DNA from: Bordetella genomosp. 13
GTDB lineage: Bacteria; Pseudomonadota; Gammaproteobacteria; Burkholderiales; Burkholderiaceae_B
Direction of reading: 5' to 3'
Assembly: GCF_002119665.1 (NCBI RefSeq)
Contig: NZ_CP021111.1
Span: forward strand, 5,208,001-5,272,000
DNA length: 64,000 nucleotides
Below are positions 26,998 through 51,004 of this stretch, in pieces. The position numbers and the translations under genes are program-made. Every line of letters begins with the position of its first letter. Position 1 is the first letter of the stretch. The notes below the pieces were generated by a model. That model was not told where the DNA came from and made no database searches. It saw only the letters and a list, made by a program, of their open reading frames with translations.

Positions 26998-27003
26998 TTT
27001 TTT

Positions 27004-27477: not shown

Positions 27478-27478
27478 C

Positions 27479-27589
27479 ATGAGCAATACCACATACCCGT
27501 TCGGCGACGCAGCGGGCGAACCCGTAAGGCGCCTGTCCGGCACCCTCTTCCAAGACTCAACCACGACCGATTTCCATGATTCTGAATAA
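27479..27589 (+). pseudogene. Vestigial start of a gene related to the one at 28051
   Basis: Directly after paralogue 1 a 36-codon frame begins MSNTTYPFGDA and stops at 27587. The corresponding position after paralogue 2 is the start of the 275 aa gene, MSSSDFPFGND, with the same TGAC-ATGAGCA junction. Only about the first 11 codons match; the rest has diverged or been deleted. It reads as a remnant from tandem duplication of a two-gene unit, and it overlaps the start of paralogue 2. Confidence 0.55.
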
Positions 27590-28049
27590 AAGGCAGTTTC
27601 TTATTTCCGGGGGAATCCTGCTGCTGGCGGTGATCGGACTGCTGGTGGCGTCGCTGCTGTACGGCGAAAAAAACAGCCCCCTGCTTTCGTCCGCAAACGG
27701 GCAGCTTACGTGCGACAGCGCGCAATACGAGGAATACAACAAGAACATGGTGCTGGCGGGCGAGATGACGGTGGGCAGGATGCCAGCGTCGGGCACCCGC
27801 CAGCAGCAGCAGAAGATGCTCGACGCCTTCGAGGCGCTCGATCTGCCCCGTGACAAGACCATCGTCGCCGCAGGCCACCTTCCCACGGGAAAGGTGTACA
27901 CGACGGTGTGTGAGAACGAAAAATGCACGATGGAGGAAATGGCCAAACCCGAACAAGCCTGCATGACGGACGACTGGAACGGCTGCTCGTACCTGGCGAT
28001 GCAGTTCAGGGAAAAACGCTACTGCTTCCTGACGCCTGCGGACCAATGA
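27576..28049 (+). CDS. Membrane-anchored Cys-rich protein, paralogue 2 (candidate T6SS immunity)
   Basis: The 157 aa product has the same length as the copy at 27004, with the identical MILNKRQF start, the AGEMTVGR and AMQFREKRYC blocks, and all six Cys kept; divergence is concentrated in the membrane segment and residues about 121-137. The TGA is followed 1 bp later by the start of the 275 aa gene, so the two are probably co-translated as a pair. Diverged tandem copies are a pattern seen for immunity proteins. The function is otherwise unknown. Confidence 0.7.
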   Translation: MILNKRQFLISGGILLLAVIGLLVASLLYGEKNSPLLSSANGQLTCDSAQYEEYNKNMVLAGEMTVGRMPASGTRQQQQKMLDAFEALDLPRDKTIVAAGHLPTGKVYTTVCENEKCTMEEMAKPEQACMTDDWNGCSYLAMQFREKRYCFLTPADQ

Positions 28050-28050
28050 C

Positions 28051-28878
28051 ATGAGCAGTTCAGATTTTCCGTTCGGCAATGACCTGATGAAGCCCGAGGA
28101 CTGGGTGGGCAGCATGGGTGCCAAATCCAAGCGATGGCTGATCTCGTACGAAGGCAGCCTGGCCGTCGTATGTGGCTACCACAGCTTCATCTTCCTTGGC
28201 CTGGACAGCATGGCCATCAGCGTCGTGAATATCCTGAACTGCGGCGTCACCGTCAGCGCCCCCATCGGCAAGATATTCAAGGCCGCGGGTGGCGCGGCGA
28301 GGGATGCCTTGGCATTCGAGAAGATCAACGATCACGCGGGAAACGCCAAGAAAGTCGACGATGCCGTCACGATGGAGAGGGAGCAAGGCGAAGCGAGCAG
28401 CGGCATGGCGCTCTACGAACGCATGAAGAAGGCCATCCCTCAGTTGGTCTACGCGACCAAACCGTTTTCTTTCGATGATCTGGCGGGCATGCCAGGAGGG
28501 ATAGCCGGCGCCGAGATAGAAGCTGTCGGCGCCGCGGGGATATATCGGATCGAGGGCTATGAAGGCGTAACGGGTGGTTTGACGAGTGATTTTTACTTTC
28601 GGGCCACGATCGCCAATGCCGGAACGGGGCTGGTGGCGGGCGGCGTGGGCGTATCCGCGGGCGTCTGGAGCGTAGAAGGGCCGCGCAATCTCTACTGGGA
28701 ACTGGCCGCCCGGTCTCGCGCGCGCTGTCTTGTGGAGAACAGCGCGCCGGGCTATGACCAGCCTTACAGACAGATTCCCAACCTTCATCCGTATCTGCAG
28801 TCGCTGCCTCCGGCGGGTTGCTCATTGGAGGAGGCGAACTTCAATCCCATGCGCATCATGCAGCAGCCGGTCCTGTAA
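28051..28878 (+). CDS. Unknown protein, candidate T6SS cargo effector
   Basis: The 275 aa protein has no family I recognise. It has no signal peptide, as expected for T6SS cargo. A hydrophobic region spans about residues 34-75 (LAVVCGYHSFIFLGLDSMAI and the following stretch), a charged helical middle about 90-125, and a Gly-rich hydrophobic stretch about 190-215 (GTGLVAGGVGVSAGVW). The amphipathic and hydrophobic content could fit a pore-forming or membrane-acting toxin, but no catalytic motif is visible. Its position between the anchored paralogues and PAAR, and the duplicated remnant of its start at 27479, support an effector-immunity relationship (inference). Confidence 0.55.
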   Translation: MSSSDFPFGNDLMKPEDWVGSMGAKSKRWLISYEGSLAVVCGYHSFIFLGLDSMAISVVNILNCGVTVSAPIGKIFKAAGGAARDALAFEKINDHAGNAKKVDDAVTMEREQGEASSGMALYERMKKAIPQLVYATKPFSFDDLAGMPGGIAGAEIEAVGAAGIYRIEGYEGVTGGLTSDFYFRATIANAGTGLVAGGVGVSAGVWSVEGPRNLYWELAARSRARCLVENSAPGYDQPYRQIPNLHPYLQSLPPAGCSLEEANFNPMRIMQQPVL

Positions 28879-28880
28879 CC

Positions 28881-29483
28881 ATGAACTCTCAGAACGGATT
28901 CGAACCCAGCAAGCCGGCATTGAGCGGTGCGATACTGTCCAAGGCCGGCCAGAGCATGCCTGACCTATGGCGCATCCAGCACTCGAATGCCAACCTGGTT
29001 GCCCGATTCGTGCGAACCGGGCAACCGCAACGGGCAGCGGGCATTTCCGCGTTGGTCGGCGAAGCAGAGACAACGATTCGGCGCGAATTGCAATCCATCC
29101 CGGCAACGTCATGGGAACGCCTGTGCGAGGCTGCGGGCTGGACGCAGGTAGGCGCGGCATCACTCTCGTGGTGCGACGGCGCGAGCGACGAACAGGTATG
29201 GCGCGCTTGGGAAAATGCCACGCCCTCGACGCCCGGCGGGGATGCATTCTTCATCGCCGCCAAATCGATGAACGCAAAGTTCCTGTTGGAAGACGACACG
29301 CTCTCCGCATTTGTGCCCCATCTCCTGACGGACAAGATGAAGGTATACGTCTCCCTGGCAGCACGCTCCGAGCAAGTCTTGATGGACTGCTCGCCTGCGG
29401 CTTTGCTTGCGTTTCCCAAGGACTTCCAGGATTTCCTGTCCCATCGAGACATCAAGCTCGTCCATCCGGACGCCAAGCGCTAA
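28881..29483 (+). CDS. Unknown protein of the vgrG island
   Basis: The 200 aa soluble protein starts at ATG 28881, 2 bp after the preceding stop. It looks mainly helical, has a Trp-rich middle (SWERLCEAAGW, LSWCDGASDEQVWRAWENA at about residues 74-115), and has no signal peptide or membrane segment. I do not recognise the family. In comparable islands a small gene next to the effector often encodes a chaperone/adaptor that loads cargo on VgrG or PAAR, so that is the leading guess. It could equally be a second effector or immunity protein. Confidence 0.55.
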   Translation: MNSQNGFEPSKPALSGAILSKAGQSMPDLWRIQHSNANLVARFVRTGQPQRAAGISALVGEAETTIRRELQSIPATSWERLCEAAGWTQVGAASLSWCDGASDEQVWRAWENATPSTPGGDAFFIAAKSMNAKFLLEDDTLSAFVPHLLTDKMKVYVSLAARSEQVLMDCSPAALLAFPKDFQDFLSHRDIKLVHPDAKR

Positions 29484-29537
29484 AGCCACGCTCACGATCC
29501 GCACAAGCGGCCTTTGACCCAGGATATCCATACGGCC

Positions 29538-29828
29538 ATGCCATCCGCAGCACGACTCGACGATCTGGCTTCCGACCATGACGGCGCGCCGCCGACGCCG
29601 TGCATCGGCGCATCGCCCGACGTCAGCATCGACGGCCGGCCTGCGGTGCGCCAGGGCGACCCGTTCGGCTCCCATGCCCGCCCGGACGAATCCGACCATG
29701 CACGCAGCCTTGCGGGCGGCTCCGGCTCCGTCTTCATCAACGGCAAGCCGGCCGGCAGGATAGGCGACCCGATCTCATGCGGCGGACAGGTCGCCGAAGG
29801 CTCGGACACCGTGTCCATCGGGGATTGA
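29538..29828 (+). CDS. PAAR-domain T6SS spike-tip protein
   Basis: The 96 aa PAAR protein caps the VgrG trimer and helps attach effectors. It begins MPSAARLDDLASDHDG and has the repeated beta-hairpin pattern SPDVSIDGRPAVRQGD and SGSVFINGKPAGRIGD, with His and Cys residues (HDG, PC, SHARPDE, SCGG) that can form the zinc site at the tip. It is essentially PAAR-only, with no toxin extension. An upstream TTG would add eight residues, but ATG 29538 fits the family. It ends the vgrG island. Confidence 0.88.
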   Translation: MPSAARLDDLASDHDGAPPTPCIGASPDVSIDGRPAVRQGDPFGSHARPDESDHARSLAGGSGSVFINGKPAGRIGDPISCGGQVAEGSDTVSIGD

Positions 29829-29850
29829 GCAAGCCGCCGGCTTGACCGCC

Positions 29851-32800
29851 CTACCGTCCACCCCTCTGCGCGGCGGCATCCAGCCTGGCCTGCTGCGCGG
29901 GCGGCAATTCGCCGTCGCCCAGCACCTGGATGGCGCTTTCGGGGCGGTAGCTGACGGGCTGGCCTGTCGGCGCAGGGCCGCGCGTCGGGGCGGAGGGCGG
30001 CGCGGCAGCGCCATCCGTTCCGAACCCGAGGATCTGCACCGTCACGATGGACGGCAGCGCCTGCCGCGACTTGTCGCGGGCCCGCGACACCGACTCCTGC
30101 GCCGCCGTCGCCGCATTGCTCGCCGCCGCGCTGGCGCTGGTGAGCGCGCCGGTGTTCACCGAGGCCGCCACCGGAACGCCCTTGGACTCGCCTTCCACCT
30201 GGATGTTGGAGGCGTTCAACACGCGCAGCGCCGCCACGTTGAAGTTGCCCGCCACGCGTATGCCCGCATCGCCGGCGTTCACGGTGCCGCCAGGGGCCAC
30301 CAGGTCGACGTCGCCCTCGCCCACGGTGCCGATCCCGGCCCCGCTCATGTCGCGCTTTTCCCGCACGGTGATGTTGCCGTCTTGGTCCGCGGTGACTTCC
30401 GGCGCCTGCGGCACGCGCACCGTCTTGGCGCCGCGGCCGGCGTCGATGTCGCCGCGGGTGGACCACAGCACCTGGTCGCTGCCCAGCGGCTCGGCCTGCG
30501 AGACGAAGGACAGGATGCGCGAACGGTTGACGACGATGTCACGGTCCGCGAACACGTTGATCTGCCCCGGCGAAGCCAGGGTCACCAGGCCGTAGCCGTT
30601 GGGCACCGCCGCGCCCAGCGCCGCCGCCTGCAGGCCGCCCCCGGGGGTAAAGACGTTGACGTCGCCCCCCTGGTGCGTGCGCGCCGCCAGCCGGGTGAAC
30701 GCGATATCGCCCGCGCCCGTCCAAGCGCTGCGCCAATCGTCCGGCAGATCCTGCGCGTAGCGCACGGGCTGGTCCGCGGCCGCCGTGCCCCGGAACAGCG
30801 TGTCGATGGCCGCGTAGCCGCGCCGATAGCCGCCGTTGCTGGACTGGCCCTGCGCATTCACGTCGTTCTGGTCGCGGCCGCCCTCGCGTAGTTCGTACAT
30901 GAATATCTGGCGCAGGAATTGCTGGCGCGCCAACGCCGGCAATTGCTGGTATTGATCCCAGGCCTGCTGCGGGGTGAGCTTGCCGTCCTCGGAGCCGGTC
31001 AGGCTGGCGACCCTTCCGGCGCCCAGCATTCCCTCCACGAAGGACACCAGGCCGCGGCGCGCCAGCTTGTTCAAATCGCCACGGGCTTCCACGCCGTCGA
31101 CCAGGTACAGCGGCACCGTCGTGCCATCGGTCAGCGTGGTCTTCAGATAGCCCGGCATGGCCGCCACGTTCGCGGGGTTCAGGTAGGCCTGCTCGAAGGC
31201 GCCGTAGCTGGGCGCCGCGTTCATGCCCGCCATGAGCGTGATGTCGGCGCCTTCGTCGGGCAGCGCCTTGATGACGTTCGGCTCGAAAACGCGCGGCAGT
31301 GCGGGGACGTAATCCCAATACCGGTTGGCATTGGAGTACAGCGACAGGTTGTTCCCCTGGATGTCGCGCCCGGCCAGCAGCAGCAGTTCCCCCGGCCCTT
31401 GCAGGGCGGCGCGGCTGCCCCGGTCGTAGTAGTACGACTCCGCGCTTCCACCGTATGTCGCATAGACGTGCGACAGGGGTCGGTTCTCCACCGCCAGGAT
31501 GTCGTTGCCCGCCGCCAGCAAAGTGGTGTCGGTGGCGCGCAGGTTGCGCCCGCTCAGCTCGAAGTTGCGAATGTCGGTGCCGGCCTGCACGCGCACCGAT
31601 TCCGACGCGATGAGGTTCAGGTCGGTGATGGAGCCACTGGCCGCGTACAGGCGGCTGGGCGCGAAGTCATGCGCCTGCATGGGCAGCGCATCGGGATTGT
31701 CGTAGATCCCCCCGTTCAGCATGTTCGTGAGGAACGTATTGGACACATGGGCGCCCTTCAGGGGAGTTCCGAACGCCGACCCGCCACTGAGCATCGTCGT
31801 GAGACCCGTCCACGACGTGAGTATCGACGGCCATTTGTCCAGCGTGGTCTGGACCATGACGATGGCGCCGGTATTCAGAAGGCTGCCGCCCCGCAGGAAA
31901 TGCAGGTCCTGGGCGGCCAGCAGCGACAGGTCGCTGGTAGCCGCCGGCGCCATCGCCAGCAGGCCGCCGACGTCGATGCTGCCGCCCAGGGCGGACACGC
32001 TCACCTTGGCCGGGTACAGCCCCAGCCTGTCCGTCTGCAGCTTGGTATCGGTCACGCCGCTGACCAATTGAGTGGTATTGGCCGTGTCGTTGCCCGCCAC
32101 GTATTCCGACTGGTTTTCCAGGCGCACATTGCCGCCGGTGGACACCAGCTTGAGCGCGCTGCGCTCGGTGAAGCTGCTCATGAAGAGCCCGTGGCTGGAG
32201 GCACCCGACACGTCCCTGTCGGCCTGGTCGAAGTAGGCGCGGCGTATTTCCATGGGGTCGATCACGGTCTGCAGGACCAGATCCCCGTACGTCTTCAGCG
32301 TAAGCGTGGCATCGGACAACGCCAGCACAGGCGCGATGTCGTAGCGGTAGGCGGAGAAGGGCCACGTGCTCGACGTGCCGGTCAGGGCATAGCCGACGGC
32401 GCTTGCGCCTGCCTCGATCTGACCCGCGCCACGGCCCACGTAGTACTGGCCGGCCTTCAGGGTGCCGCCCGCCTTCACCTGCAGCTGCCCGCCATTGCGG
32501 ATGACGATGGCCGGCGCCGCATCGTCGGCCGAACGCCCGCCCGTCACCCGCATGGTGCTGGGCAGCGCAACCACGAGATTGACCAGATCGCCGCCAGCGG
32601 AGAGCCGCACGTTGCCGCCGCCCAGCGCGCCCAGCCCCTGCTGGAAGGTCGCGTAGTTGACCCACCAGCTGGGCTGCTGGCCTCTTGCGGACATGTTCGG
32701 AGGAACATCCCAGGAATTGCCGACGTTGTACGCATCGTAATAGCCGGTGGGATTCTCAAGGTCGCCGCCATAACGCCCCTGGCGGAACAGCCATTCGGTC

Positions 32801-35800
32801 AGTATGTGATCCGATCGCGAACCCTGCGCGGTGGGCGCCTGCACGCTGCCTTGTGCCGCGATGTCGACGTGGCCGCCGTCGGCGCCGTACTGGGCATCCA
32901 CGCTCGCGGTGCTGAAACCACCGCCCAGCGTCGGGTTGGCCTCGGCACTGCCCGCGGTGTACAGGACGGACTCTTTGTGCGCCAGCACCACGTCGCGCCC
33001 TGCTCGCACCGTCAGGTCGCCGGTGCCGGTACGCACCAGCTTGCCCGCGCCGCCGCTGCCGGGCGTGACGTTGGCCGTGCCCACGCGGATCGTGCCGGCA
33101 TCGGCCGCCAGCGCGCCCGTTGCCTGCACGGCCAGCGCGTCGACCGAGGCCAGGTCCGCGCCCGACACCAGGCGCAGATTCCACGACGGGGCGGCGGCCA
33201 GCCTGCCGCCGCGGTCGACCGCGTCGAAGCCATCGCTCAGGTGGCCGTCGATATTCAGGTTGCGCGCCGCGCGCAGGGTCAGCGTGCCTTCGCGGTGGGT
33301 CGCGCCGAAGTCGGCATTCAGGTTCCAGTCGCTGCCCAGCGTCAGGTTCCCGGCGCTGGTGATCTCGATGCCGGCGGCCAGCGTGTAGGCGGCCGCATTG
33401 CCGCCCAGACCGGCCAGGATGCCGGTGTTGCCCGCAAAGGCATTCGCTTCGCCGATGGCCGCGGCCTTGACGGATTCCACCGTGCCATCCGCGCTGGCGT
33501 AACTGCGCGCGCCTTCCAGTACGGTGGACCGCGCGCCCTGCACGACGGCGTCCAGCGCGGTGACGTTCAGGCCGTCGTTGCCCGCATTGCGCTGCGCTCG
33601 CACCCGCAGCCTGCCGCCTTCCCCACCGCTCAGATCCAGCGTGCCGCCTGCCAGGTGCAGGTTGCCGTCGACCGCTTCCAGGGTGATGCGGCTGCTGCCC
33701 AGGCCGTCGATGGCGTCGGTGGCATGGGCGGCCAGCACAGCGCCGCTTTGCATCACCAGGCCTCCGCCCCCCACCAGGCGGATGCTGCCGCCATAGACGG
33801 CGCTGGCCTCGACGTGCGCCGTGCCGTCGACGGTGATCACGCCCCGGTCGGTAATGACTTCGAAGTCGGAAACACGCGTGGCGCCCGCGATGGTCAGGTC
33901 GCCCTGGCGGATGCGCAGCTGCCACGATTGGTTGAAGCCGGCCTCGTTGAGCGTCTGCGCCAGCCCGCCGAAGTCGGCCAGTCGGTCGATGGCCAGCGCG
34001 AAGCGGCCGCCGTCCGTGCCGGCGCCGGCCCGCGCCTGCAACGCGCCGCCGAATTGCACGCGTCCGCCGGCCGAGGCATCCACCGTCAGGCTGCCGGCAT
34101 TGCCGCCGTCTTTGTGGGCGGACAGGTCCAACACGCTGCCCGGGGCCAGGTCGATCAATCCGCCCCGGGTGGCCAGGCTGATCTGGCCCGCATCCACGTA
34201 TTGCGGCACGTCGAAGAACACTTTCTCCAGGCCGCCCGCGAGCAGGCTGCCTTGGTCAGTGACCGTCAGGTCACCCGTGCCGGCATCCACCGTGATGCTG
34301 CCGCCCAGCGCCAGCACCGGCAGACCGACCGTCACGCCCTGGCCGGCCAGGCTCAGGCGCGCGCCCAGCGCAAGCTTGCCCAGTTCGGCCAGCGCCGCGG
34401 CGTCCATGTCCGCCGTCTTCTGCAACACGAGCCCGTCCTGCGTGCGCACGGCCTGATCGGCGCCGGCGCGGCCCTGCAGCACCGGCGCGCTCAGCGTCAG
34501 CGCCGCCGTGCCGGCATCCAGGGCGCCACTGCCTTCGCCCACGATGCGCTGGCTGGCCGACAGCAGCACCTGGCCGAAGCCGGAAATGGACTTGTCGCCC
34601 GCGCCCAGCACCAGTTCGTCGGCCATCAGTTCCAGACGGCCGCTGCCCGTGCCGACGCCGACGGCCTGCGCACCGGTGTTCTGCAGGGTCAGGCGTGCGG
34701 CCCGCACCTGTACCGCATCGGCGCCAGCGCCCTGCAAGGCCGCGGCGTCGAACACCACCTGCGCCAGGCCGCGCATATCGAGCGCGCGATGAAAGTCCAG
34801 GCTGCTGTAGCTGTGCAATGTCAGCGCCTGCGTGCGCGACAACTGTGCCAGCGCGGCGGCGTCCAGCGCCAGGCCCGCGCTACCGCCGCCGATGCCGATG
34901 CGGCCCGCCGCCACCGACAAGGCGGTGCCCGACAACTGTGCGCCCGCTGCCATCTCGGTCGTGTTGGTGGCATCGATCAGCAGCGCCGCGCCGCCTTCCA
35001 GCAGGGCGCCCGCGCCGATGCGTACCTGGCCGCCCGTCGTGGTATCCACGTTCTCGCGCAGCGCGCTCACCGCCCGGCCGCTGCCCACGCGCACCAGCGC
35101 GCCCCAGTCCCTGGAAGGCGTGGTGATGCTGTCGTCGCTGGTGTCGTTCGGGGTGTTGTTGTCGTTCCATTCGGCCGCGACCTGCGGCTTGAGCACGAGA
35201 TCCGCGTCCTCGCCGGAAGCCTGGCCATGGGCGCGCAGCACGCTGCCCGATTCGATCGACACCAGGTTGGTCGCGGCCAGGATCACTTCCGGTCCGCTCA
35301 AGACGGAGTCGGCCGTGTTGCGCAGCACGACGTCGCTGGCGGCCACGTCGACCTGCAGGCCCCGCGCGTCGCCCGTGCGTGTGCCGCCCACCAGCAGGCT
35401 GCCCGCGCCGAAGCGCGTCAGGCTGCCGGCATCCACGATCAGGTAGCCGTCGGCGTGCAGGTCGCTGCCGTCCTGGCCGGCGCCGACGATGGCGATTCTG
35501 TCGGCGGAAATGTCCACCAGGCTGCCGCGGCCGCCCTGGTCGGGATGCGAGCGCAGCTGCCCGTCCAGGGCCAGGGTGTTCGTGGCCTTGAACACGACCG
35601 CGCCGCCGTCGCGTGGCAGCCGAGGGGTGACGACGTCTTGCCCCGTCAGGCGGTACTGCGTCAGCTTGAAGGCGTCCGAGCCGAAGAAGGCGTTGGCCTG
35701 GGCTTCGTTGTATTCGCTGACCTTGCGCACCAGGTCGCCCGACGACACGCGCCATGCCGAGGCGGTGGCCTCCCGCGCGCCGCTGATCGTGTCCTGCACC

Positions 35801-38800
35801 CGACCGGCCACGATCACCGAGCCATCGCGCAGGGTGGCCACCTGGCCGCGCGACGCGGCCCCAGCCGGCAAGACCCGCCCCGTCGCCTGCACCGCGAAGG
35901 CGCCGGGCAGCAACGCATAGTGCGCCGGCAGCAGCGTATACCAGCCGGCATCCAGGCCGCCCCCGGCCAGCCACACCTCGCGGCCGGCGGCATCGCCCGC
36001 GCCGCGCATATCGGGCGACAGGCCGTGGTAGCGCGGCAGCACCGCGTACATGCCCGGCAGCGTCAGCACGTCGTGCGAGCCGCCCGATCCGGGTACGTGC
36101 TCCCACGCGTACAGATCTCCCCCGCCCGCGATGTCCACCACCGCGCCTGCGGCCATGCTCACGTCCGGCGCCTGCAGGGATACGCGCTTTTCCGGCAGCG
36201 ACGACAGATAGCGGTTCTCGTCGAGGACGCTGCCGTCGTTAAGATTCGCGCGATTGCGGCCCTGTGGGTTGGCTGGGTCCAGCCAGTACTCGGCGTTGCG
36301 CAACGTGCCGTAGAGCACGCCCAGGCCCGCTCCGGACACCGAGGTCAGGCTGGCGTCGCCCAGCAACAGGCGCTCGCTGGCGTCCAGCACGATCTGTCCG
36401 AAGGGCGCTCGCAGTACGCCGGCTTGCTCGATGATGGGCGCGGTCAGCGTCAGGCTGCCACCGGCCGACAGCGGCGTCGCGGCGCTGCCGTTGCCTCGCA
36501 CGGTGATGGACTGGTCCGACCGGATGCGCGCCGTGACGGCCGTGGCCGGATAGACCTGCGCCGCCTTGATTTCCACCGCCCCGTCCACGTCCAGCGTGGC
36601 ACGCAGGTTGGCGTCGTCGTAGTCGGCATTACCTTCGCCGTATGCCTCCGCCACGAAGCGCAGGTCGCCGGTTTCCAGCAAGGTGCGCTCGAAGCCGCGC
36701 ACGCTGACGTTCAAGGCTTGCGAAGCGTCGCCCTTCACACTGCTGCCCGCGATGTCGAGGACCTGGCTGGCCGAAAGAATCAGTTCGCCGACATTGCCGG
36801 CGGCGCTGCCGACCGTGCCGGGCAACGGCTTCAGTTGCAGCGCATTGGCGTGCAGGCGCGCCACCCCGCCCTTGCCATCGCTCCTGATGACCGGAGCCGT
36901 GATGCGCAGGCGGCCGTCGACATTGAGATCCACCCCGCTGGACACCTGTATGCCCACTTTCGCGGAATGCAGCTCCAGCGTCGATATGCCCGTGTTCTGC
37001 AGCGTCGCCGACGCGACGTGCAACGTGCTGTCCGCGGTAGCGATGTTGCCGATGCTGATCTTGTGGCTCAATGCCGTCCCGGTGCCGCTCCAGAAGTGCT
37101 TGTTGAGCAGGTCGACGACCCGTTGATCGATCGCCGTGTTGTATTCCCACGGCGCGATGCCCGCACCCGCGCCCGGGGCGAGCGCCGCGCCCGCGTCGAT
37201 GACCAGCCCGCTGCTGCCGGACACCAAGGTGGGCAGGGAGCTGTTGATCGCGGTGCGCATGGCGCTGGCCATCCTGACGTCACCGGCGTATTCGTCGAAT
37301 ACGTCGAGGTTGGCGCTGGTGCCTATGACGCGCGTGTACTGTATTCCGTCGAACGTATGCGTTCCGGTCATTCCGGCGGGCGTCCGGTAAAACAGGAAGG
37401 ACCCGACGTCGGGGTTCACAAGATCCCCGGACGGGCTGCCGGCCGAGCTGGTGTCCATGATGGACAGCGAGCCGCCTGCCGCCTGCGCATTGCCGCCGTG
37501 GGCTCGCAGCGTGGCGTTGATGGCGCCGCCCCCTTCCACCGTGATCGCCACGGCTCCGCCATCGCTGCCCACCTCCTGCGCCGTGCGCCGGGTCCGGTCG
37601 AGCGCGGTCGCGCCGCGGGCCCAGTGTTCCACCGTGCCCCGCGCGCCGGACACGTCGATCAGCGAGCCGGCCCTGGCATCCAGCGACCCGGCAGTCAGCG
37701 AAACCGTGCCGCCCGCGAGTACCTGGCCGCGATGCAGATTCGTTGCCGGGTCGTGAAAGATCTGCGCCACCCCGGGCAGCAGCAGCTCGGCCCCGTCCGC
37801 CAGCGTCAAGGCGGTCTTGGCACGGATGTCCAGCGTGCCCGCCGGCGCCAGGATGCGGCCGGCCACGGAAGCCGTCCCGGACCCATCGGCGTCCAGGGAG
37901 ACCGACCCGCCAGGATCCACTTGGATGAGAGAGCCCGCCTCGATGCGGATGCTTCCGCCGGATGCGCCAGTCGACAGCGACAGGCCGCCGGGGGCGCGTG
38001 CCGCGCGGGCGCGTCCGTCCAGTTCGTCCAGTGCCAGGGGCGTCAGCACGCGGCCCAGTGAATCGTCACTGGGAAGTGCCCGCAGCGCCTGCGGCGCCGA
38101 CATGTCCCATACCTTGGGCAGGATGCGAACCTGCGCCCCCTCCGCGACCACGATATCCCCGCCGAGCGAGCGGATGCCGATCGTGCCGAAGCCGCGGTCG
38201 CTGTACAGCGCTTCCGGCAGATGCAGCGTTTGCACCGCACCCGGCGCCGCCCCTGCCTCGGACGCGGCGCCGCCCACCTGCACGTCCCCGGTGGCCATGA
38301 GGCTGAGCCGGGACGCATCGCCCCCCGACCAGCCCCGCAGGTCCAGCGTACCGAGCGCGGCATTGTCGAACGCCATCAGGCTGATGATGCCGCCGTTGCC
38401 GGCCCGCACCCCGCGGGACCCACCGCCCGCCGACGCGGCATCAGGCAGCCAGCCGCCGCCGGATACGTCGAGCACCGCGCCGGCCGCCACGTCCACCTTG
38501 CCGTATACCGTGCCCAGGCCCTCTTTCACCGGCGTGCCCAGCATGATGCCTCCGCCATGGATGGCCCGGCCCAGCGTGACGCCGCCGCCTGCGGCGTCGT
38601 TGACCCACTGGCCCGCGGTGCTCAGCACACTGTTCGCCCCCAGGCGTAGGACGCTGTCCGCGACACCGCCCGCGCTCAGGACGATGTTGCCGCCTGGCGC
38701 GATGAGATGGCCCTGAATGTCGAAGTTCCCAGGGTTGCCCGCGCCTTCGTAGACCTGGGCCGCGAAGCGGCTCCCCGGCGCAAGGTTCAGCACCACGCCT

Positions 38801-41526
38801 TCTTCCAGCGTGAACCCGGCGGTCAGGTTCAGTTCGATGGAACCCAGGCCGGAATCGCCCAATGCCGAGGCGGACAGCCAGGTGGTCCGGCCCGCGCCCG
38901 CGGGGGTACCGGCGGATTGTCCTTCCGGTCCGGCCAGGAAGGCGTCCCGGCCCAGCGGGCTGTCGATAGTGAAGTCGCCAGGCAGCAGCGTCGGCGTATT
39001 GCTGATGATGACCTGGCCCAGCGTCCACAAGCCTTCCTGCGCCCGGTTGGAACCTATGGTCAGGCGGCCGGCTCGGGGCAGGTCGGACTGTTCCTGTGCG
39101 CGGTCGCCCGGCTGTACCGAACCCTTGATCTCGCCCTCCAGGATGTAGGCGCTGCCGGCGATGATTTCGAGCGAACCCGCTTCCCGCCCTTCGACGTACC
39201 CCTGCTCCCAGCGCCGCCGCGGCCACAACGGGTTCACATAGGTCCGCGTGACGTCCCAGCGCGCGTGCGTGTGCTGGTACTGGCCGGCGATGCCCACGTA
39301 GGTCATGTCCGCCGGCGCGGACGACATCGAATACACGCGCCCGTCCGCGCCGCGCAACTGAGTCTCGGTATTCCAGCCATCGCTGTAGCGAACCGACCCG
39401 CCGGAGACGTCCAGGATGGAGCCCGGCCGCGTGATCATCGAGCCGTTGGACTGGATGGTGATATTGCCGCCCCGCGCCGCCAGTTCGGACAGGGTCACCA
39501 GGCCATTGCCCACCCACCCGGTCACGTCCGCCAGCGGGGTGCCGACCCAGGCGCCCTTGACCACTTTGCCGGAATCGTCGGACACCCATTCCACGCCCGC
39601 CATCAGGCCGTCGAAAACGCCGGACTTGCGGCGGTCCACGATGACTTTCCTGCCGTACAGCCAGGTCCCCGCTTGCAGATGAGAGTCGCGCAGCTCGTTG
39701 ATGCGCAGTTCGGCCTCGACGAAGTTGGCAGCCATGTCCACCGGCATTTCCAGCAGGCCGGCGGTGCTGATGGTGGCGTCTGCCCCGATGAGGATGCGGC
39801 TGCCGTCGCCGAATTGCATGTGGCGAGGTTCGGCGGCGGGGTTGGCCTGGGCCTGGATGTCGATGTTGCCCGCCGCGGCGGTGACCTGGGCGCGGGCCTG
39901 CACGTCGATGGTTTTGCCGTAGAGCTCGATACGGCCGGGCTGGTAGCGGTTGGCCAGCGCGCCGCTTTCGATCTGGGTGGTGTCCCGCCAGTCGTTGACG
40001 ACCTGGGTGATGCTGTCCGGTCCCACGGTGAGCTTGCCGCCCGACCAGGACACCAGGTGCGTGGCAGAGGGGTCGACATTGTTGTCGATGTTGTAGACGC
40101 CCTGGCCCCAGGCGCGCAGGCGGATGGAGCCCGCCCGGTTGTTCAGCGCCGTGCTGGCTTGCAGCACGCCGTTCTGGTCGATCTCGCGCGACACCAGGGT
40201 GATGTCGCCATGATCGGCCTGGACGATGCCGGTGTTCTCCACGCTGTACCCGACCTCGGCCGCGCGGCGCTCCATCAGCGGCACGATGTCGGACACGATA
40301 CGTCCGATGAGATACTGGTCGAACCCGGGGCCTGTCCGCGGATTGAGCAGGAACCTGGCGGGGAAAGCCCAGGGCCTCACCGAGGAGGCGACGGCATCGA
40401 AACCGCGCACGGTCGGGCTGCTGCCCTTGGCTTCCAGCCAGACATTTTCGCCAGCGGCCAGCAGCGTCTGGCCCTCCGGGGTCCGGATGCTGCCGGCATT
40501 GCTGACCTTGGGCGCGAACATCAGCACGTGGCCGCCCTGGGCATCGATCCGCGCGCCGGCCAACACCTTGACGTCGCCGGGCGCGGTGCCAGGATCGAAT
40601 GCGGGACCCATGTCGTCGAACAGGACGGACGAATCGGCCGGCATGGTCGTGGGGTTTTCACCGAACGTGGGAATCCCCACGGCGATCTCCAGGCCGCTCC
40701 AGTAGCCCGGGTCACCCGTGTTCGCGCCCAGTCGCACGTTGAGGCCGGCCTTGAACTGCTCGTCCGTCAGCTTCAGGCTGGAAGCCACCAGGCTGCGAGT
40801 ATTGATCTGGCTGGAACCGGTGAAGACAACGCCATTGCGGTTGATGAGATACACCCCGCCTTCGGCCTTGATCTGGCCCGCGATCTCGCTGGGCCTGCCG
40901 CTGGGATCGGTGATGCGATTCAGCACCACCCATTCGTTGCGCCCGGTCTTGGCGTCGGTGCCCGCGCTCTGGTCGAAGCGCACGGTGGTGTTCTTGCCTA
41001 CGTTGAAGGTCTTCCAGTTCAGGATCGCCTTGTCTTCGTTCTGCTTGATGGCGACTTCGGTGCGGCCCTGCTCCTGCCTCGTGCGCAGCGTCTGGTCGGC
41101 GCCCTGCCAACCCGCGGCCAGGTCCTGCTGCAGCCCGCCCAGGGCCACGCCGTCCGGGATGGACGAGATGGCGGCCAGCTCCTTGTCGCGCTCCCGCTGC
41201 TGGCGCGCCATCTCGGCGGCGATCGCCTGCGCCGTGCGGCCGGCATTGGCCACCATCCGGCCGGTCTGCGCGGCGGCCTGGCGCTGGCTCGTCGACTGCA
41301 TGGACGCTGCCTGGGCGCGCTTGGCGCGGGCGGCGTTCAGGCCGGCAGCGCCGGAGACGCTTTCCCGTGCGGCGCCCTGCGCCGACCACCAGGCCCCGGC
41401 GGCACGGGCCTGCTGGGAAGAAGCCAGGCCGCCGGCCAGCAGCAGCGCCGCCAGGGCGGCATGCAACACCGTGGGCTTCGAAGGAAAGGCAGGAACGGCA
41501 GCGCGGGGCACACGACGAACGGGCAT
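29851..41526 (-). CDS. Giant filamentous-haemagglutinin-family exoprotein (TPS domain, DUF3739-type C-terminus)
   Basis: This is a protein of about 3,891 aa. A signal peptide of about 42 residues (VLHAALAALLLAGGL, cleavage about ARA-AGAWW) is followed by an Ala/Gln/Arg-rich helical stretch (about 45-125). A TPS-type secretion domain (about 130-350) carries INRNGVVFTGSSQINTRSLV. More than 3,000 residues of imperfect beta-helix repeats follow, rich in G-x-V/I-x-L/V and DVSGG-type turns. The last 600 residues include WSTRGDIDAGRGAKT, characteristic of DUF3739 members, then a Pro/Ala-rich end. Two-partner secretion to the surface is the family expectation, but no TpsB/FhaC partner is adjacent. 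The frame extends to 41619, but codon use before 41526 looks non-coding and ATG 41526 gives a clean signal peptide. It follows the FecR-type gene on the same strand. Confidence 0.88.
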   Translation of the reverse strand: MPVRRVPRAAVPAFPSKPTVLHAALAALLLAGGLASSQQARAAGAWWSAQGAARESVSGAAGLNAARAKRAQAASMQSTSQRQAAAQTGRMVANAGRTAQAIAAEMARQQRERDKELAAISSIPDGVALGGLQQDLAAGWQGADQTLRTRQEQGRTEVAIKQNEDKAILNWKTFNVGKNTTVRFDQSAGTDAKTGRNEWVVLNRITDPSGRPSEIAGQIKAEGGVYLINRNGVVFTGSSQINTRSLVASSLKLTDEQFKAGLNVRLGANTGDPGYWSGLEIAVGIPTFGENPTTMPADSSVLFDDMGPAFDPGTAPGDVKVLAGARIDAQGGHVLMFAPKVSNAGSIRTPEGQTLLAAGENVWLEAKGSSPTVRGFDAVASSVRPWAFPARFLLNPRTGPGFDQYLIGRIVSDIVPLMERRAAEVGYSVENTGIVQADHGDITLVSREIDQNGVLQASTALNNRAGSIRLRAWGQGVYNIDNNVDPSATHLVSWSGGKLTVGPDSITQVVNDWRDTTQIESGALANRYQPGRIELYGKTIDVQARAQVTAAAGNIDIQAQANPAAEPRHMQFGDGSRILIGADATISTAGLLEMPVDMAANFVEAELRINELRDSHLQAGTWLYGRKVIVDRRKSGVFDGLMAGVEWVSDDSGKVVKGAWVGTPLADVTGWVGNGLVTLSELAARGGNITIQSNGSMITRPGSILDVSGGSVRYSDGWNTETQLRGADGRVYSMSSAPADMTYVGIAGQYQHTHARWDVTRTYVNPLWPRRRWEQGYVEGREAGSLEIIAGSAYILEGEIKGSVQPGDRAQEQSDLPRAGRLTIGSNRAQEGLWTLGQVIISNTPTLLPGDFTIDSPLGRDAFLAGPEGQSAGTPAGAGRTTWLSASALGDSGLGSIELNLTAGFTLEEGVVLNLAPGSRFAAQVYEGAGNPGNFDIQGHLIAPGGNIVLSAGGVADSVLRLGANSVLSTAGQWVNDAAGGGVTLGRAIHGGGIMLGTPVKEGLGTVYGKVDVAAGAVLDVSGGGWLPDAASAGGGSRGVRAGNGGIISLMAFDNAALGTLDLRGWSGGDASRLSLMATGDVQVGGAASEAGAAPGAVQTLHLPEALYSDRGFGTIGIRSLGGDIVVAEGAQVRILPKVWDMSAPQALRALPSDDSLGRVLTPLALDELDGRARAARAPGGLSLSTGASGGSIRIEAGSLIQVDPGGSVSLDADGSGTASVAGRILAPAGTLDIRAKTALTLADGAELLLPGVAQIFHDPATNLHRGQVLAGGTVSLTAGSLDARAGSLIDVSGARGTVEHWARGATALDRTRRTAQEVGSDGGAVAITVEGGGAINATLRAHGGNAQAAGGSLSIMDTSSAGSPSGDLVNPDVGSFLFYRTPAGMTGTHTFDGIQYTRVIGTSANLDVFDEYAGDVRMASAMRTAINSSLPTLVSGSSGLVIDAGAALAPGAGAGIAPWEYNTAIDQRVVDLLNKHFWSGTGTALSHKISIGNIATADSTLHVASATLQNTGISTLELHSAKVGIQVSSGVDLNVDGRLRITAPVIRSDGKGGVARLHANALQLKPLPGTVGSAAGNVGELILSASQVLDIAGSSVKGDASQALNVSVRGFERTLLETGDLRFVAEAYGEGNADYDDANLRATLDVDGAVEIKAAQVYPATAVTARIRSDQSITVRGNGSAATPLSAGGSLTLTAPIIEQAGVLRAPFGQIVLDASERLLLGDASLTSVSGAGLGVLYGTLRNAEYWLDPANPQGRNRANLNDGSVLDENRYLSSLPEKRVSLQAPDVSMAAGAVVDIAGGGDLYAWEHVPGSGGSHDVLTLPGMYAVLPRYHGLSPDMRGAGDAAGREVWLAGGGLDAGWYTLLPAHYALLPGAFAVQATGRVLPAGAASRGQVATLRDGSVIVAGRVQDTISGAREATASAWRVSSGDLVRKVSEYNEAQANAFFGSDAFKLTQYRLTGQDVVTPRLPRDGGAVVFKATNTLALDGQLRSHPDQGGRGSLVDISADRIAIVGAGQDGSDLHADGYLIVDAGSLTRFGAGSLLVGGTRTGDARGLQVDVAASDVVLRNTADSVLSGPEVILAATNLVSIESGSVLRAHGQASGEDADLVLKPQVAAEWNDNNTPNDTSDDSITTPSRDWGALVRVGSGRAVSALRENVDTTTGGQVRIGAGALLEGGAALLIDATNTTEMAAGAQLSGTALSVAAGRIGIGGGSAGLALDAAALAQLSRTQALTLHSYSSLDFHRALDMRGLAQVVFDAAALQGAGADAVQVRAARLTLQNTGAQAVGVGTGSGRLELMADELVLGAGDKSISGFGQVLLSASQRIVGEGSGALDAGTAALTLSAPVLQGRAGADQAVRTQDGLVLQKTADMDAAALAELGKLALGARLSLAGQGVTVGLPVLALGGSITVDAGTGDLTVTDQGSLLAGGLEKVFFDVPQYVDAGQISLATRGGLIDLAPGSVLDLSAHKDGGNAGSLTVDASAGGRVQFGGALQARAGAGTDGGRFALAIDRLADFGGLAQTLNEAGFNQSWQLRIRQGDLTIAGATRVSDFEVITDRGVITVDGTAHVEASAVYGGSIRLVGGGGLVMQSGAVLAAHATDAIDGLGSSRITLEAVDGNLHLAGGTLDLSGGEGGRLRVRAQRNAGNDGLNVTALDAVVQGARSTVLEGARSYASADGTVESVKAAAIGEANAFAGNTGILAGLGGNAAAYTLAAGIEITSAGNLTLGSDWNLNADFGATHREGTLTLRAARNLNIDGHLSDGFDAVDRGGRLAAAPSWNLRLVSGADLASVDALAVQATGALAADAGTIRVGTANVTPGSGGAGKLVRTGTGDLTVRAGRDVVLAHKESVLYTAGSAEANPTLGGGFSTASVDAQYGADGGHVDIAAQGSVQAPTAQGSRSDHILTEWLFRQGRYGGDLENPTGYYDAYNVGNSWDVPPNMSARGQQPSWWVNYATFQQGLGALGGGNVRLSAGGDLVNLVVALPSTMRVTGGRSADDAAPAIVIRNGGQLQVKAGGTLKAGQYYVGRGAGQIEAGASAVGYALTGTSSTWPFSAYRYDIAPVLALSDATLTLKTYGDLVLQTVIDPMEIRRAYFDQADRDVSGASSHGLFMSSFTERSALKLVSTGGNVRLENQSEYVAGNDTANTTQLVSGVTDTKLQTDRLGLYPAKVSVSALGGSIDVGGLLAMAPAATSDLSLLAAQDLHFLRGGSLLNTGAIVMVQTTLDKWPSILTSWTGLTTMLSGGSAFGTPLKGAHVSNTFLTNMLNGGIYDNPDALPMQAHDFAPSRLYAASGSITDLNLIASESVRVQAGTDIRNFELSGRNLRATDTTLLAAGNDILAVENRPLSHVYATYGGSAESYYYDRGSRAALQGPGELLLLAGRDIQGNNLSLYSNANRYWDYVPALPRVFEPNVIKALPDEGADITLMAGMNAAPSYGAFEQAYLNPANVAAMPGYLKTTLTDGTTVPLYLVDGVEARGDLNKLARRGLVSFVEGMLGAGRVASLTGSEDGKLTPQQAWDQYQQLPALARQQFLRQIFMYELREGGRDQNDVNAQGQSSNGGYRRGYAAIDTLFRGTAAADQPVRYAQDLPDDWRSAWTGAGDIAFTRLAARTHQGGDVNVFTPGGGLQAAALGAAVPNGYGLVTLASPGQINVFADRDIVVNRSRILSFVSQAEPLGSDQVLWSTRGDIDAGRGAKTVRVPQAPEVTADQDGNITVREKRDMSGAGIGTVGEGDVDLVAPGGTVNAGDAGIRVAGNFNVAALRVLNASNIQVEGESKGVPVAASVNTGALTSASAAASNAATAAQESVSRARDKSRQALPSIVTVQILGFGTDGAAAPPSAPTRGPAPTGQPVSYRPESAIQVLGDGELPPAQQARLDAAAQRGGR

Positions 41527-41682
41527 GGGAAGGATTCCGGAAAACTTGAACCAGCGGTGTGCCGGCGGATTCTTCCGCACGGAACCGTTACCCCGCATAG
41601 ACGCGTGGGCGCCATGCAACCAGAAGCTCGTCCCTGATTAAATTTTTATGTCTGGATACATCAGTAGGGCAGCGCGCGCCAT

Positions 41683-42627
41683 TCAGGCGATGAACACCAG
41701 CCCGCCGGGCCCGTGCCGCAGCGTCGCGCCCAGCAGACGTTCTATCTGGACCAGCGCGACGTCGATGTCGCCGATGGGGAACCGCCCGCTCAGCCGGCGC
41801 TCGGACAGTGCGTCATTGACCAGCACCACCCGGCCGGGGCGGTAGCGGTTGATCTCATCGACGGCCTGGGGCAACGGCAGGTCATCGATCACCACGACGC
41901 CGTCGCGCCACGAAGCGGCCGCCAGCGGGTCGGCGACCGTCACGACGTCTTGCAGGCCCTGGTCGTCGTAGGCCACTTGCTGTCCTGTCCGCAGCGCGAC
42001 CCGTTGACTGCCATGCAGGACGTCGGCCTGTCCGTCCAGGCAGGTGATCAGGACGCTTCCGCCCAGCCGCCGCACGCCCAGGCTGGCCACTCCGGCCCGG
42101 ACGCTGCCGGCGCCCGCCTGGATCTGCAGCTGCCGATCCACGTGCGTGCACTCGAACGTTGCCTCGCCTTCGAGCAATTCAACGCGCTGCTGGCCTGCCT
42201 CGAGCCAGGCCGACAGGCTGGTGCGCGTGTTCATGACGACGCGCACGTCGCCGGCCAGTGCCACGCGGCGCTGCTCGCCCACGGCAGTGCGGTAGTCCGC
42301 GCCCCATTCGCGCATCGACGGCCACAGCGCGAGCGGCGGAAACGCCGCCAGCGCGGCCGCCGAGGCGGCGCCGGCCGCCAATCCCGCGCCCAGGATCATC
42401 CGGCGCCGCGAACGAACCGGTTGGCCGGCGGGCCGCCGCTCGCGCCAGGTGCGCCCCAGATCGCCCAGGTCGCGCCAAGTGCGGCGCGCCTGGTTCCAGG
42501 CTGCCCGATGCTCGGCGCTGGCATCGCGCCATTGTTCGAACTTCCTGACGTCGCGGCCAGTGGCCTGGCCGGAAGTCAGGTGGCGCAGCCATTCGCGCGC
42601 CTGCCGCTCGAGAATGGGATCGGACAT
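41683..42627 (-). CDS. FecR-type anti-sigma factor / signal transducer
   Basis: The 314 aa membrane protein has an N-terminal cytosolic anti-sigma domain (DUF4880-like, about residues 5-50, with FEQWRDASAEHRAAWNQ). One TM segment (about 77-100) is preceded by RSRRRMILG, a twin-arginine-like motif. The periplasmic FecR domain (about 110-215) is followed by a C-terminal STN-like fold (about 235-314, LPLPQAVDEINRYRPGRV). FecR proteins hold or activate an ECF sigma factor on receiving a periplasmic signal. ATG 42627 overlaps the sigma-gene stop (TGATG); a GTG 3 nt upstream is possible. Confidence 0.9.
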   Translation of the reverse strand: MSDPILERQAREWLRHLTSGQATGRDVRKFEQWRDASAEHRAAWNQARRTWRDLGDLGRTWRERRPAGQPVRSRRRMILGAGLAAGAASAAALAAFPPLALWPSMREWGADYRTAVGEQRRVALAGDVRVVMNTRTSLSAWLEAGQQRVELLEGEATFECTHVDRQLQIQAGAGSVRAGVASLGVRRLGGSVLITCLDGQADVLHGSQRVALRTGQQVAYDDQGLQDVVTVADPLAAASWRDGVVVIDDLPLPQAVDEINRYRPGRVVLVNDALSERRLSGRFPIGDIDVALVQIERLLGATLRHGPGGLVFIA

Positions 42628-43139
42628 CACGCACCGCTCCTGTCCAGCCGTTCGGCGCAGTAGTCGTGGGCGCGGCGCAATTCGGCTTCGATGGCGCGTT
42701 GTGAAATGCCGTACTGCCTGGACAACTCTTTGCGCGTAACGCCGTCGATACGGATGGCGAGGAATATCTGCCGCCGGCGCTCAGGCAACTCGTCGAGGAC
42801 GCGCAGCAGCTGCTGCAGTTCGATCTGCGACTCGAGACTATGGCGCGGCCCGAGATCGGGATCGTCGAGTTGCAGCAGGTCGTCGATTTCCGACGCAGAA
42901 ACCAGCCGCGTGTCCTTGCGCCAGCGGTCGACCGCCACGTTGACAGCCATACGCAACACGAAGGCCTGCGGATTCTCGACGGGCTGGAATTCGTCGCGCC
43001 CGTTCAGCCGCAGCCAGGTATCGTGCAGCGCGTCGCCGGCACGCTCTTCGCTGCCCAGCTGATAGGCAAGGCGGCGCTTGAGAGAGTCATAGCGATCGAT
43101 CAGGAAATTGCGCAGGTCGGCCAGCGTGTACGTGCTCAT
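42627..43139 (-). CDS. ECF (FecI-like) RNA polymerase sigma factor
   Basis: The 170 aa sigma70-family factor has region 2 at about residues 10-75 (DALHDTWLRL, AFVLRMAVNVAVDRWRKD) and region 4 at about 105-165, with the HTH GVTRKELSRQYGISQRAIEAEL. It resembles the FecI iron-transport subgroup. It overlaps the FecR-type gene and follows the STN protein gene by 13 bp, so the three form one unit. The natural prediction is that it drives the downstream exoprotein gene and/or its own unit. Confidence 0.92.
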   Translation of the reverse strand: MSTYTLADLRNFLIDRYDSLKRRLAYQLGSEERAGDALHDTWLRLNGRDEFQPVENPQAFVLRMAVNVAVDRWRKDTRLVSASEIDDLLQLDDPDLGPRHSLESQIELQQLLRVLDELPERRRQIFLAIRIDGVTRKELSRQYGISQRAIEAELRRAHDYCAERLDRSGA

Positions 43140-43152
43140 CGTTCTTGCCTGG

Positions 43153-43845
43153 TCAGTCCAGCCGCGCCACGCAGTCGCCCGTGGCGGCGCGATCCCGGGG
43201 CTCGACCAGGACCGTCATGGGCTGCCGCAAGCCGGATGGCGGCCGTGCCCCCACGCTGAAACCACGCAGCCGGGCGACGATCTTCTGGTCGCGGCCCTGG
43301 TCGCCGGTAGAGCCGACCAGCTCGAACTGCTGCATCACGCCGGCGCCGTCCAGCCAGAAACGCATGCCGACGCGATACGCACCGGGCACGGTGGCGGGGT
43401 CGCCGCACAACGCCTGCTCTATCCCGGCTTGCAGCAGACCGTAGTACCGCTCTTTCGCCGATGGAAGCCGATCGGCCTTGCGTGATGGCGCGCCCACCAC
43501 CGACAGCACGAACGCGTGCGCATTGACGTAGTCCGCACGCACACCTGTGCCTTCGATCAGGCGATGCAGCGCGGCGTCCGGCGTGTACCGGCCGACGACC
43601 GGCGATGACAGGCGCCCGGCCAGGGCGCGGGTTTCGTACAGCAAGGCCCGCCCGGTGTGAATGCCATACTGCTCCAGGGCCGCCTGCAGCGATTGCCGGG
43701 GTATGTCGAAGTCCAGCGGGGCTGAGGCTTGCGTGTCCGCATGAGCATCGGAGGCCATAGCGACGCAGAGCATGGCGCACGACATGACGGCCACCATGAA
43801 CCCAGCCACGATGCGCGGCTGGTGTCGGTACCATGTGCGGTTCAT
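43153..43845 (-). CDS. Periplasmic STN-domain protein with TonB C-terminal-like domain
   Basis: The 230 aa exported protein has a signal peptide (cleavage about AHA-DTQ, residue 36). An STN (secretin/TonB short N-terminal) domain spans about 44-115 (FDIPRQSLQAALEQYG, then PDAALHRLIEGTGV). A C-terminal region at about 130-220 reads like a TonB C-terminal domain (MRFWLDGAGVMQQFELVGST, then QKIVARLRGF). STN domains normally sit at the N-terminus of TonB-dependent transducers and touch the FecR C-terminus. Here the domain is detached from any beta-barrel and paired with a TonB-like one. Being first in the unit before fecI, fecR and the exoprotein, it is probably the periplasmic signal relay (inference). 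Confidence 0.75.
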   Translation of the reverse strand: MNRTWYRHQPRIVAGFMVAVMSCAMLCVAMASDAHADTQASAPLDFDIPRQSLQAALEQYGIHTGRALLYETRALAGRLSSPVVGRYTPDAALHRLIEGTGVRADYVNAHAFVLSVVGAPSRKADRLPSAKERYYGLLQAGIEQALCGDPATVPGAYRVGMRFWLDGAGVMQQFELVGSTGDQGRDQKIVARLRGFSVGARPPSGLRQPMTVLVEPRDRAATGDCVARLD

Positions 43846-43983
43846 CGGGTCGAAAGACGGGTCCCGGTCAGGGGGCGCAGCGCGGTGCGCGCAGCCCCAA
43901 GAGCGTGGAAAGGAAGCCAGTCTAGGCAGGCAATTTGACCGAGTCGTGACACATCACTGAAACAGGATGGCCGGCTCGGCTGC

Positions 43984-44023
43984 AAAGAAAAACGGCGGCC
44001 CCACCTCTCGGTAGGGCCGCCGT
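43984..44023 (-). terminator. Intrinsic terminator of the str unit after rpsJ
   Basis: On the minus strand the perfect 10 bp stem ACGGCGGCCC / GGGCCGCCGT is followed by TTTTTCTTT. It lies 45 bp past the rpsJ stop and separates the str unit from the STN-sigma-FecR unit. Confidence 0.92.
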
Positions 44024-44067
44024 CCGGGAGACGCGCGACGCGCGTCCCCGTGCATCAGGCGAATGCC

Positions 44068-51000: not shown

Positions 51001-51004
51001 GCCC

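Follow-up and report, generated by a model that had tools for sequence, protein, structure and literature searches.

A PUMA3-type sensor, sigma and anti-sigma unit with a PhoB-box-like promoter at a giant two-partner-secretion exoprotein gene of Bordetella genomosp. 13

Introduction

What does a FecI/FecR-type regulatory pair control when its partner sensor has no receptor barrel and the gene that follows encodes a giant exoprotein? This question is raised by four genes of Bordetella genomosp. 13 within a stretch of 64,000 nucleotides (contig NZ_CP021111.1, positions 5,208,001 to 5,272,000), which we call the window. They encode a small STN protein (the sensor), an extracytoplasmic function (ECF) sigma factor, a FecR-type anti-sigma factor and a two-partner-secretion (TPS) exoprotein; the first three are referred to here as the trio, and all four as the cassette. 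An initial annotation of this DNA had proposed that secretion or the surface state of the exoprotein is sensed through the STN protein and feeds back on exoprotein transcription. The analysis reported here indicates that the cassette is very probably a PUMA3-type, PhoB-gated VreA-VreI-VreR signalling unit that serves a single giant TPS exoprotein with DUF3739; the secretion-sensing part of the proposal is kept as a tentative idea, short of being probable.

Results

The cassette in the window

The genes follow one another in the order sensor, sigma factor, FecR and exoprotein on the minus strand, from 43845 down to 29851 (Table 1). Gene calls, Pfam and PDB matches bore out the four same-strand genes and the families that the initial annotation had given them, together with the gaps of 13 bp before the sigma gene and 156 bp before the exoprotein gene and the exoprotein length of about 3,890 aa. 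The 1-bp overlap of the sigma and fecR genes stands for an ATG start of FecR at 42627 and becomes 4 bp if FecR begins at GTG. The absence of a TonB receptor gene was also borne out, the sensor being only 230 aa long and no open reading frame (ORF) of at least 600 aa being left unassigned: such ORFs are the exoprotein, VgrG, EF-G, RpoB, RpoC, a CHASE2 kinase, or frames overlapping these or ribosomal genes on the opposite strand. No TonB-dependent receptor with an STN extension was found among them, although not each ORF was searched against the receptor family. No type II secretion system (T2SS), TpsB or ExbBD-TonB genes adjoin the cassette in the window.

The sensor consists of a signal peptide (assigned by eye), an STN domain at about residues 41-121 and a TolA/TonB-like C-domain at about residues 127-217. 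The STN domain scored under the Pfam cut-off (22.2 vs 28.4 bits) and was backed by PDB matches to the signalling domains of FpvA, PupB and FecA. Residues 107-306 of FecR matched the C-terminal signalling domain of PupR, which was solved in complex with PupB (6OVK, E 2.4e-20), and the sensor STN and FecR match both partners of that complex. Cys147 and Cys225 of the sensor are invariant in 21 aligned proteins (aligned without L039, L045, L050, L051, L052 and L056). Homologue searches with the sensor returned 8-9 proteins only, with no named Pseudomonas VreA among them. Like FecI-FecR-FecA, FpvI-FpvR-FpvA and PupI-PupR-PupB, the cassette thus combines an ECF sigma factor, a FecR-type anti-sigma factor with a PupR-like C-domain and an STN domain; unlike them, it has no receptor barrel, its promoter suggests PhoB-box rather than iron-type control, and its target is an exoprotein.

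The N-terminal TPS domain of the exoprotein also matches TIGR01901 (1.5e-19). In 15 aligned exoproteins, the last 141 aa form the best conserved block (0.53 vs 0.08-0.38 in the other blocks). A TpsA of the contact-dependent inhibition or polymorphic-toxin type, in which a C-terminal toxin domain would differ between relatives, was rejected on this conservation.

Table 1. Coordinates of the cassette and its promoter elements in the window
Feature	Position	Strand	Details
VreA-like periplasmic protein (sensor)	43153..43845	-	230 aa, no beta-barrel
ECF sigma factor, FecI-like/VreI-like	42627..43139	-	170 aa, Sigma70 r2 + r4
FecR/VreR-like anti-sigma factor	41683..42630	-	315 aa from GTG, DUF4880 + FecR
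Giant TPS exoprotein, TpsA, PdtA-like	29851..41526	-	ATG at 41526, 3,891 aa
TPS secretion domain of exoprotein	40741..41100	-	PF05860 4.9e-22
DUF3739 in conserved C-terminal part of exoprotein	30169..30483	-
PhoB-box-like direct repeat 5' of sensor gene	43935..43952	-	GTGTCAC-GACT-CGGTCAA
-10-like element	43919..43924	-	TAGACT, 10 bp past box; PhoB-type sigma-70 promoter layout
PhoB-box-like A/T-rich element 5' of exoprotein gene	41637..41654	-	weak by itself
Candidate ECF-type -10 of exoprotein gene	41598..41603	-	CGTCTA
Terminator-like hairpin and T tract after rpsJ, between ribosomal operon and cassette	43990..44025	-	16 pairs, 11 GC

The trio accompanies DUF3739 exoproteins in relatives

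The occurrence of the cassette was examined in a genus-level sample of 15 genomes of the genus of Bordetella ansorpii, of which G001 holds the contig of B. ansorpii SMC-8986T. DUF3739 exoproteins were found in four of them (13 in G001, 11 in G002, one in G004 and two in G012), and 25 of these 27 have the trio adjacent or nearby. In G001, 12 of the 13 exoproteins have a trio, 11 of them collinear and one divergent (L037); in this record a run of N falls within the sensor gene of L039, and the exoprotein frames of L032 and L033 are split. G002 holds nine contiguous cassettes, one with parts about 30 kb apart, an exoprotein alone (L057) and a sensor alone (L054). G004 has one cassette, and G012 has a contiguous one and another with parts about 30 kb apart, with a T2SS and two PBP_like_2 genes in between. 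The remaining 11 genomes lacked DUF3739, a full-length sensor at E 1e-10 (a match in G003 covers residues 23-124 within an 873-aa frame) and any relative of the B. ansorpii TpsB at E 1e-20. The search for co-occurrence that the initial annotation had proposed therefore shows that a receptor-less FecIR-type unit with a TPS exoprotein recurs. Because order and strand recur in relatives, the cassette is not a chance cluster, and that explanation was rejected.

At the order level, DUF3739 was found in 45 of 399 genomes and full-length sensors in five, all within the 45. At the class level, two of 369 genomes have full-length sensors, one being B. ansorpii itself; in the other (L092), T2SS and PBP_like_2 genes lie between trio and exoprotein, and T2SS genes are found at L059, L065 and L092. 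Per-genome counts at these levels are lower bounds, with up to seven order-level sensor, 11 order-level DUF3739 and eight class-level sensor candidates scored per genome. Matches to the sensor C-domain only were obtained in 26 order-level genomes, including G173, which also has a full-length sensor; 25 of the 26 are in genomes with DUF3739, and 19 have a DUF3739 match no more than 5 kb away on their contig. All eight loci examined of these 19 have TpsB-TpsA-ExbB-ExbD-TonB-Porin_5. These loci share the exoprotein family with the cassettes and encode a TonB-like protein akin to the sensor C-domain; unlike the cassettes, they gave no match to the STN sensor, ECF sigma factor or FecR within 18-20 kb each.

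In B. ansorpii, the TpsB gene lies apart from the cassettes, in the module TpsB-ExbB-ExbD-TonB-Porin_5-x-YbjN. Each of the four DUF3739-bearing Bordetella genomes has one close TpsB (74-100% identity), and G002 has a remote one (26%) as well. Since the single module stands apart from the B. ansorpii cassettes, one module probably exports many exoproteins, as judged from gene arrangement. Elsewhere TpsB-ExbB lies 3' of the exoprotein, namely in G004 (L058), G153 (L069) and one G365 cassette (L063), and in G173 (L068) the export module is upstream of the trio. The export module encodes ExbB as a fusion with DUF2341 and a lectin-like Laminin_G_3 domain (L043:4724-6589).

A PhoB-type promoter precedes the trio

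The joint pattern seen 5' of the sensor gene in the window (box, 10 bp and -10) was found in 11 of 18 Bordetella sensor promoters, compared with none of the 18 on the reverse strand and none of 15 fecR-tpsA gaps; in 300 shuffles the mean was 0.00 and the maximum 1. The 18 cassettes exclude the orthologues L028, L045, L050, L051, L052, L056 and L059 and the N-interrupted L039. Outside Bordetella the pattern occurs at three of seven loci (shuffle mean 0.003), and before the TpsB of regulator-free loci at one of eight (shuffle mean 0.023). The PhoB box in the first promoter of the cassette makes phosphate starvation, and not iron, its likely first gate.

The A/T-rich element 5' of the exoprotein gene did not have a significant box score alone (p 0.22), and the PhoB-box score alone in the fecR-tpsA gaps was mostly at shuffle level. 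The motif CGWCTA was found in 8 of 18 regions before exoprotein genes and the separate B. ansorpii TpsB (reverse strand 2; shuffle mean 0.70, maximum 4), and in seven of these eight it lies 28-32 bp past a box-like A/T-rich element, as counted by eye. L028, L045, L050, L052 and L056 were excluded from this test, and L032 and L033 were absent from its input.

These results bear on whether the trio is an ordinary FecIR iron-signalling unit that has its TonB receptor elsewhere and the exoprotein as an unrelated neighbor. The sigma factor and FecR do belong to the FecI/FecR superfamily, and the STN domain is closest to the signalling domains of FpvA, PupB and FecA; however, the trio accompanies nearly all of the Bordetella DUF3739 exoproteins, all five order-level genomes with a full-length sensor have such an exoprotein, and the operon promoter looks PhoB-type, which makes this explanation very improbable. 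An iron-regulated FecIR unit was rejected on the PhoB-type promoter and the lack of a receptor among the large ORFs of the window.

Comparison with PUMA3

The likeness to PUMA3 of Pseudomonas aeruginosa described here is based on gene order, domains and published descriptions, of which parts were available, and not on sequence comparison with the P. aeruginosa proteins. In these accounts, VreA is modelled as a barrel-less protein made of an STN domain and a TolA-like C-domain, and a TPS pair is under the control of VreI (PMC2729926); PhoB boxes are present in the promoters of vreA and pdtA, which require PhoB (PMC4971064), and both PhoBR and PUMA3 are named in a TPS review as regulators of pdtB-pdtA (PMC5422565). 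The window shares with PUMA3 the A-I-R gene order, a small receptor-less sensor with an STN and a TolA/TonB-like C-domain, a PhoB-box promoter 5' of the A gene (recognized in the window by sequence, as box and -10) and a TPS exoprotein as target or in the locus, which in the window also carries DUF3739. In addition, the B. ansorpii module has the order of pdtB-exbB2-exbD2-tonB4-PA0696-PA0697-PA0698 of P. aeruginosa (PMC7035377), and the relatives L059 and L092 have T2SS genes between trio and exoprotein as P. aeruginosa does. The window differs from P. aeruginosa in that the exoprotein gene directly follows fecR and the locus has no Hxc T2SS genes.

Homologues of PUMA3 were reported in 2009 in other bacteria, Pseudomonas fluorescens among them, including two bacteria with four clusters each, three followed by tpsA and one by tpsB-exbBD (PMC2729926). 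Because that work counts clusters of a trio followed by tpsA as PUMA3 homologues, the T2SS is no feature of the signalling unit, hence the term PUMA3-type, and the cassette is a new PUMA3-type unit of the arrangement "trio then tpsA". The initial interpretation of a receptor-less FecIR unit tied to a TPS exoprotein in conserved gene order holds; it missed the kinship with PUMA3 and the phosphate gate, and the partner transporter of the exoprotein is not beside the cassette.

The fourfold repeats in PMC2729926 also led us to reject multiplied trios with one TpsB module as a novelty in themselves. Unlike those homologues, B. ansorpii combines 12 trios with a single TpsB module that stands apart, and Bordetella is not among the species named in the available parts of that account, which do not mention a relation between sensor and module TonB, PhoB boxes in those species or co-divergence. 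A comparative study of Bordetella, whose main text lacks the word FecR, likens the hemagglutinin genes of B. ansorpii to counterparts in Pseudomonas and further Beta- and Gammaproteobacteria (PMC5045587). Reports of such units in Bordetella were not found in the literature searched, which missed most subscription papers, and a literature search on DUF3739 found no paper. Within that literature, the larger expansion (in B. ansorpii and across the 27 exoproteins, with one close TpsB per genome) appears to be new.

The sensor C-domain is related to a secretion-linked TonB

When a profile of the sensor C-domain was run against 10 DUF3739 module loci (the eight regulator-free loci, L043 and L068), their TonB-like proteins scored 42-66 bits; the profile gave no match at E<=10 at the loci of three B. 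ansorpii TonB_C proteins above the Pfam cut-off. By sequence profile, the C-half of the sensor is thus related to the TonB-like protein of DUF3739 secretion loci, with no relation detected to the ordinary TonBs that the genome also encodes, and the sensor resembles an STN domain attached to a secretion-linked TonB C-domain. Two more small proteins match the C-domain with 40-41 bits (L043:9205-9897 and L062:717-1385). This relation, beyond the TolA/TonB superfamily assignment of 2009, was not found in the literature searched, which lacked most subscription papers, and is apparently new. Alternatively, the C-domain would read the cell envelope through Tol-Pal or a general TonB rather than the secretion machine; the selective profile matches, in a comparison in which TolA was not scored, make this unlikely.

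The trio proteins co-diverge

Among 14 representatives, the identity matrices of the trio proteins were correlated (sensor-sigma 0.76, sensor-FecR 0.68, sigma-FecR 0.87), values reached by none of 2000 permutations. In contrast, the N-terminal 650 aa of the exoprotein did not follow the trio (r -0.06 to 0.03), and their conservation is higher (median 0.57 vs 0.32-0.39). The split exoprotein frames L032 and L033 and L051 were excluded from this run. Co-divergence of the trio proteins without the exoprotein secretion domain is apparently new in the literature searched, and it fits private circuits with a common exporter.

Neighboring genes and genomic setting

In 12 loci (L029, L032, L034, L035, L036, L037, L049, L051, L052, L053, L062 and L064), the exoprotein gene is directly followed by a second ECF-sigma-like gene, called at about 125-230 aa; no sigma match was found 3' of the window exoprotein. 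Most of the second sigma factors compared group apart from the trio sigma factors, no FecR match adjoins them, and the L034 copy matches Pfam sigma region 2 only.

In the window, the S10 ribosomal operon is split by an insert of about 20 kb (24244-44379), made up of the cassette and a VgrG island, that separates rpsJ from rplC; the hairpin after rpsJ has 16 pairs (shuffles: mean 0.5, standard deviation 0.7). Of the 14 Bordetella genomes that gave a match, 11 have 0.3-0.5 kb between rpsJ and rplC. An exoprotein end precedes rplC in G001 and G002, and VgrG does so in G012. The order is rpsJ-cassette-VgrG island-rplC in the window (24793-43845) and is swapped in B. ansorpii (L001/L028), with rpsJ-VgrG island-cassette-rplC. 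Two plus-strand ORFs of 157 and 263 aa beside VgrG (27576-28878) have no Pfam match; both are conserved in B. ansorpii, the 263-aa one in two copies, and are possibly associated with a type VI secretion system. A response regulator and a CHASE2-PAS histidine kinase are encoded between rpsL and rpoC (50161-53314).

Discussion

Taken together, the results suggest the following course of events. At low phosphate, PhoB would start the STN-sigma-FecR operon from its PhoB-box promoter. By homology, FecR would keep the sigma factor at the inner membrane until its release, and the periplasmic STN domain would bind the C-domain of FecR in the way PupB binds PupR; in iron systems, the signalling domain was described in 2024 as shielding the anti-sigma factor from proteolysis without signal (PMC11637429, available in part). 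The sensor C-domain would probably touch the outer-membrane secretion machine or its ExbBD-TonB partner, and the state of the machine could alter the STN-FecR contact and release the sigma factor. Free sigma factor, probably with help from PhoB, would then transcribe the exoprotein gene. In a relative, the separate TpsB-ExbB-ExbD-TonB module has a similar promoter element and is probably transcribed by the sigma factor as well. The relation of the sensor C-domain to a TPS-linked TonB gives secretion sensing an indirect argument. It is possible, though we would not yet call it probable, that the sensor couples an STN domain to the C-domain of a TonB dedicated to secretion and reports the state of the ExbBD-TonB-coupled exporter, that one exporter serves about 12 giant exoproteins, each with its own insulated PhoB-gated circuit, and that the cell chooses surface coats via these parallel switches.

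Several observations weigh against this interpretation. The joint box pattern is absent in 7 of the 18 Bordetella promoters and in four of the seven other loci, and the box and CGWCTA tests are partly circular because both motifs were first spotted by eye; an unbiased dyad enumeration of the fecR-tpsA gaps was not above shuffles, and no -35 was defined. B. ansorpii has five ShlB-type transporters, four besides the TpsB of the module. The structural model of the sensor is moderate (predicted local distance difference test score 72.7), with a C-domain fold nearer to TolA than to TonB. The middle and C-terminal parts of the exoprotein track the regulators moderately (r 0.29-0.54, from a first run with 13 divergent cassettes and the split frames L032/L033 still in), and joint duplication alone may also give the co-divergence of the trio. 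Finally, in the available parts of PMC7035377, VreA was dispensable for sigma-VreI activity in vitro and for virulence in zebrafish. This last finding favors a vestigial sensor, in which case only PhoB and anti-sigma turnover would regulate and the STN/TonB-C protein would have no signalling role, as does the sensor gene of L054, which has no sigma, FecR or exoprotein gene nearby and indicates that sensor and circuit can part; the L039 copy, cut by a run of N in the record, may or may not be intact. Nevertheless, in each of the 25 cases in which a sigma-FecR pair stands next to or near a DUF3739 exoprotein, a sensor gene is present too, the two cysteines are invariant and the sensor co-diverges with FecR, and we consider a vestigial sensor improbable.

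The multiplied cassettes of B. ansorpii offer a natural panel of co-diverging sensor, anti-sigma and sigma sets for specificity studies. They also raise the question of what a two-partner exporter needs ExbBD-TonB genes of its own for, as TpsB transporters are said to act without external energy (PMC9355242, available in part). In P. aeruginosa, the function of VreA and the inducing signal have been called unknown and exbB2-exbD2-tonB4 uncharacterized (PMC7035377); the relation between the sensor C-domain and the TPS-linked TonB provides a specific, testable hypothesis for all three.

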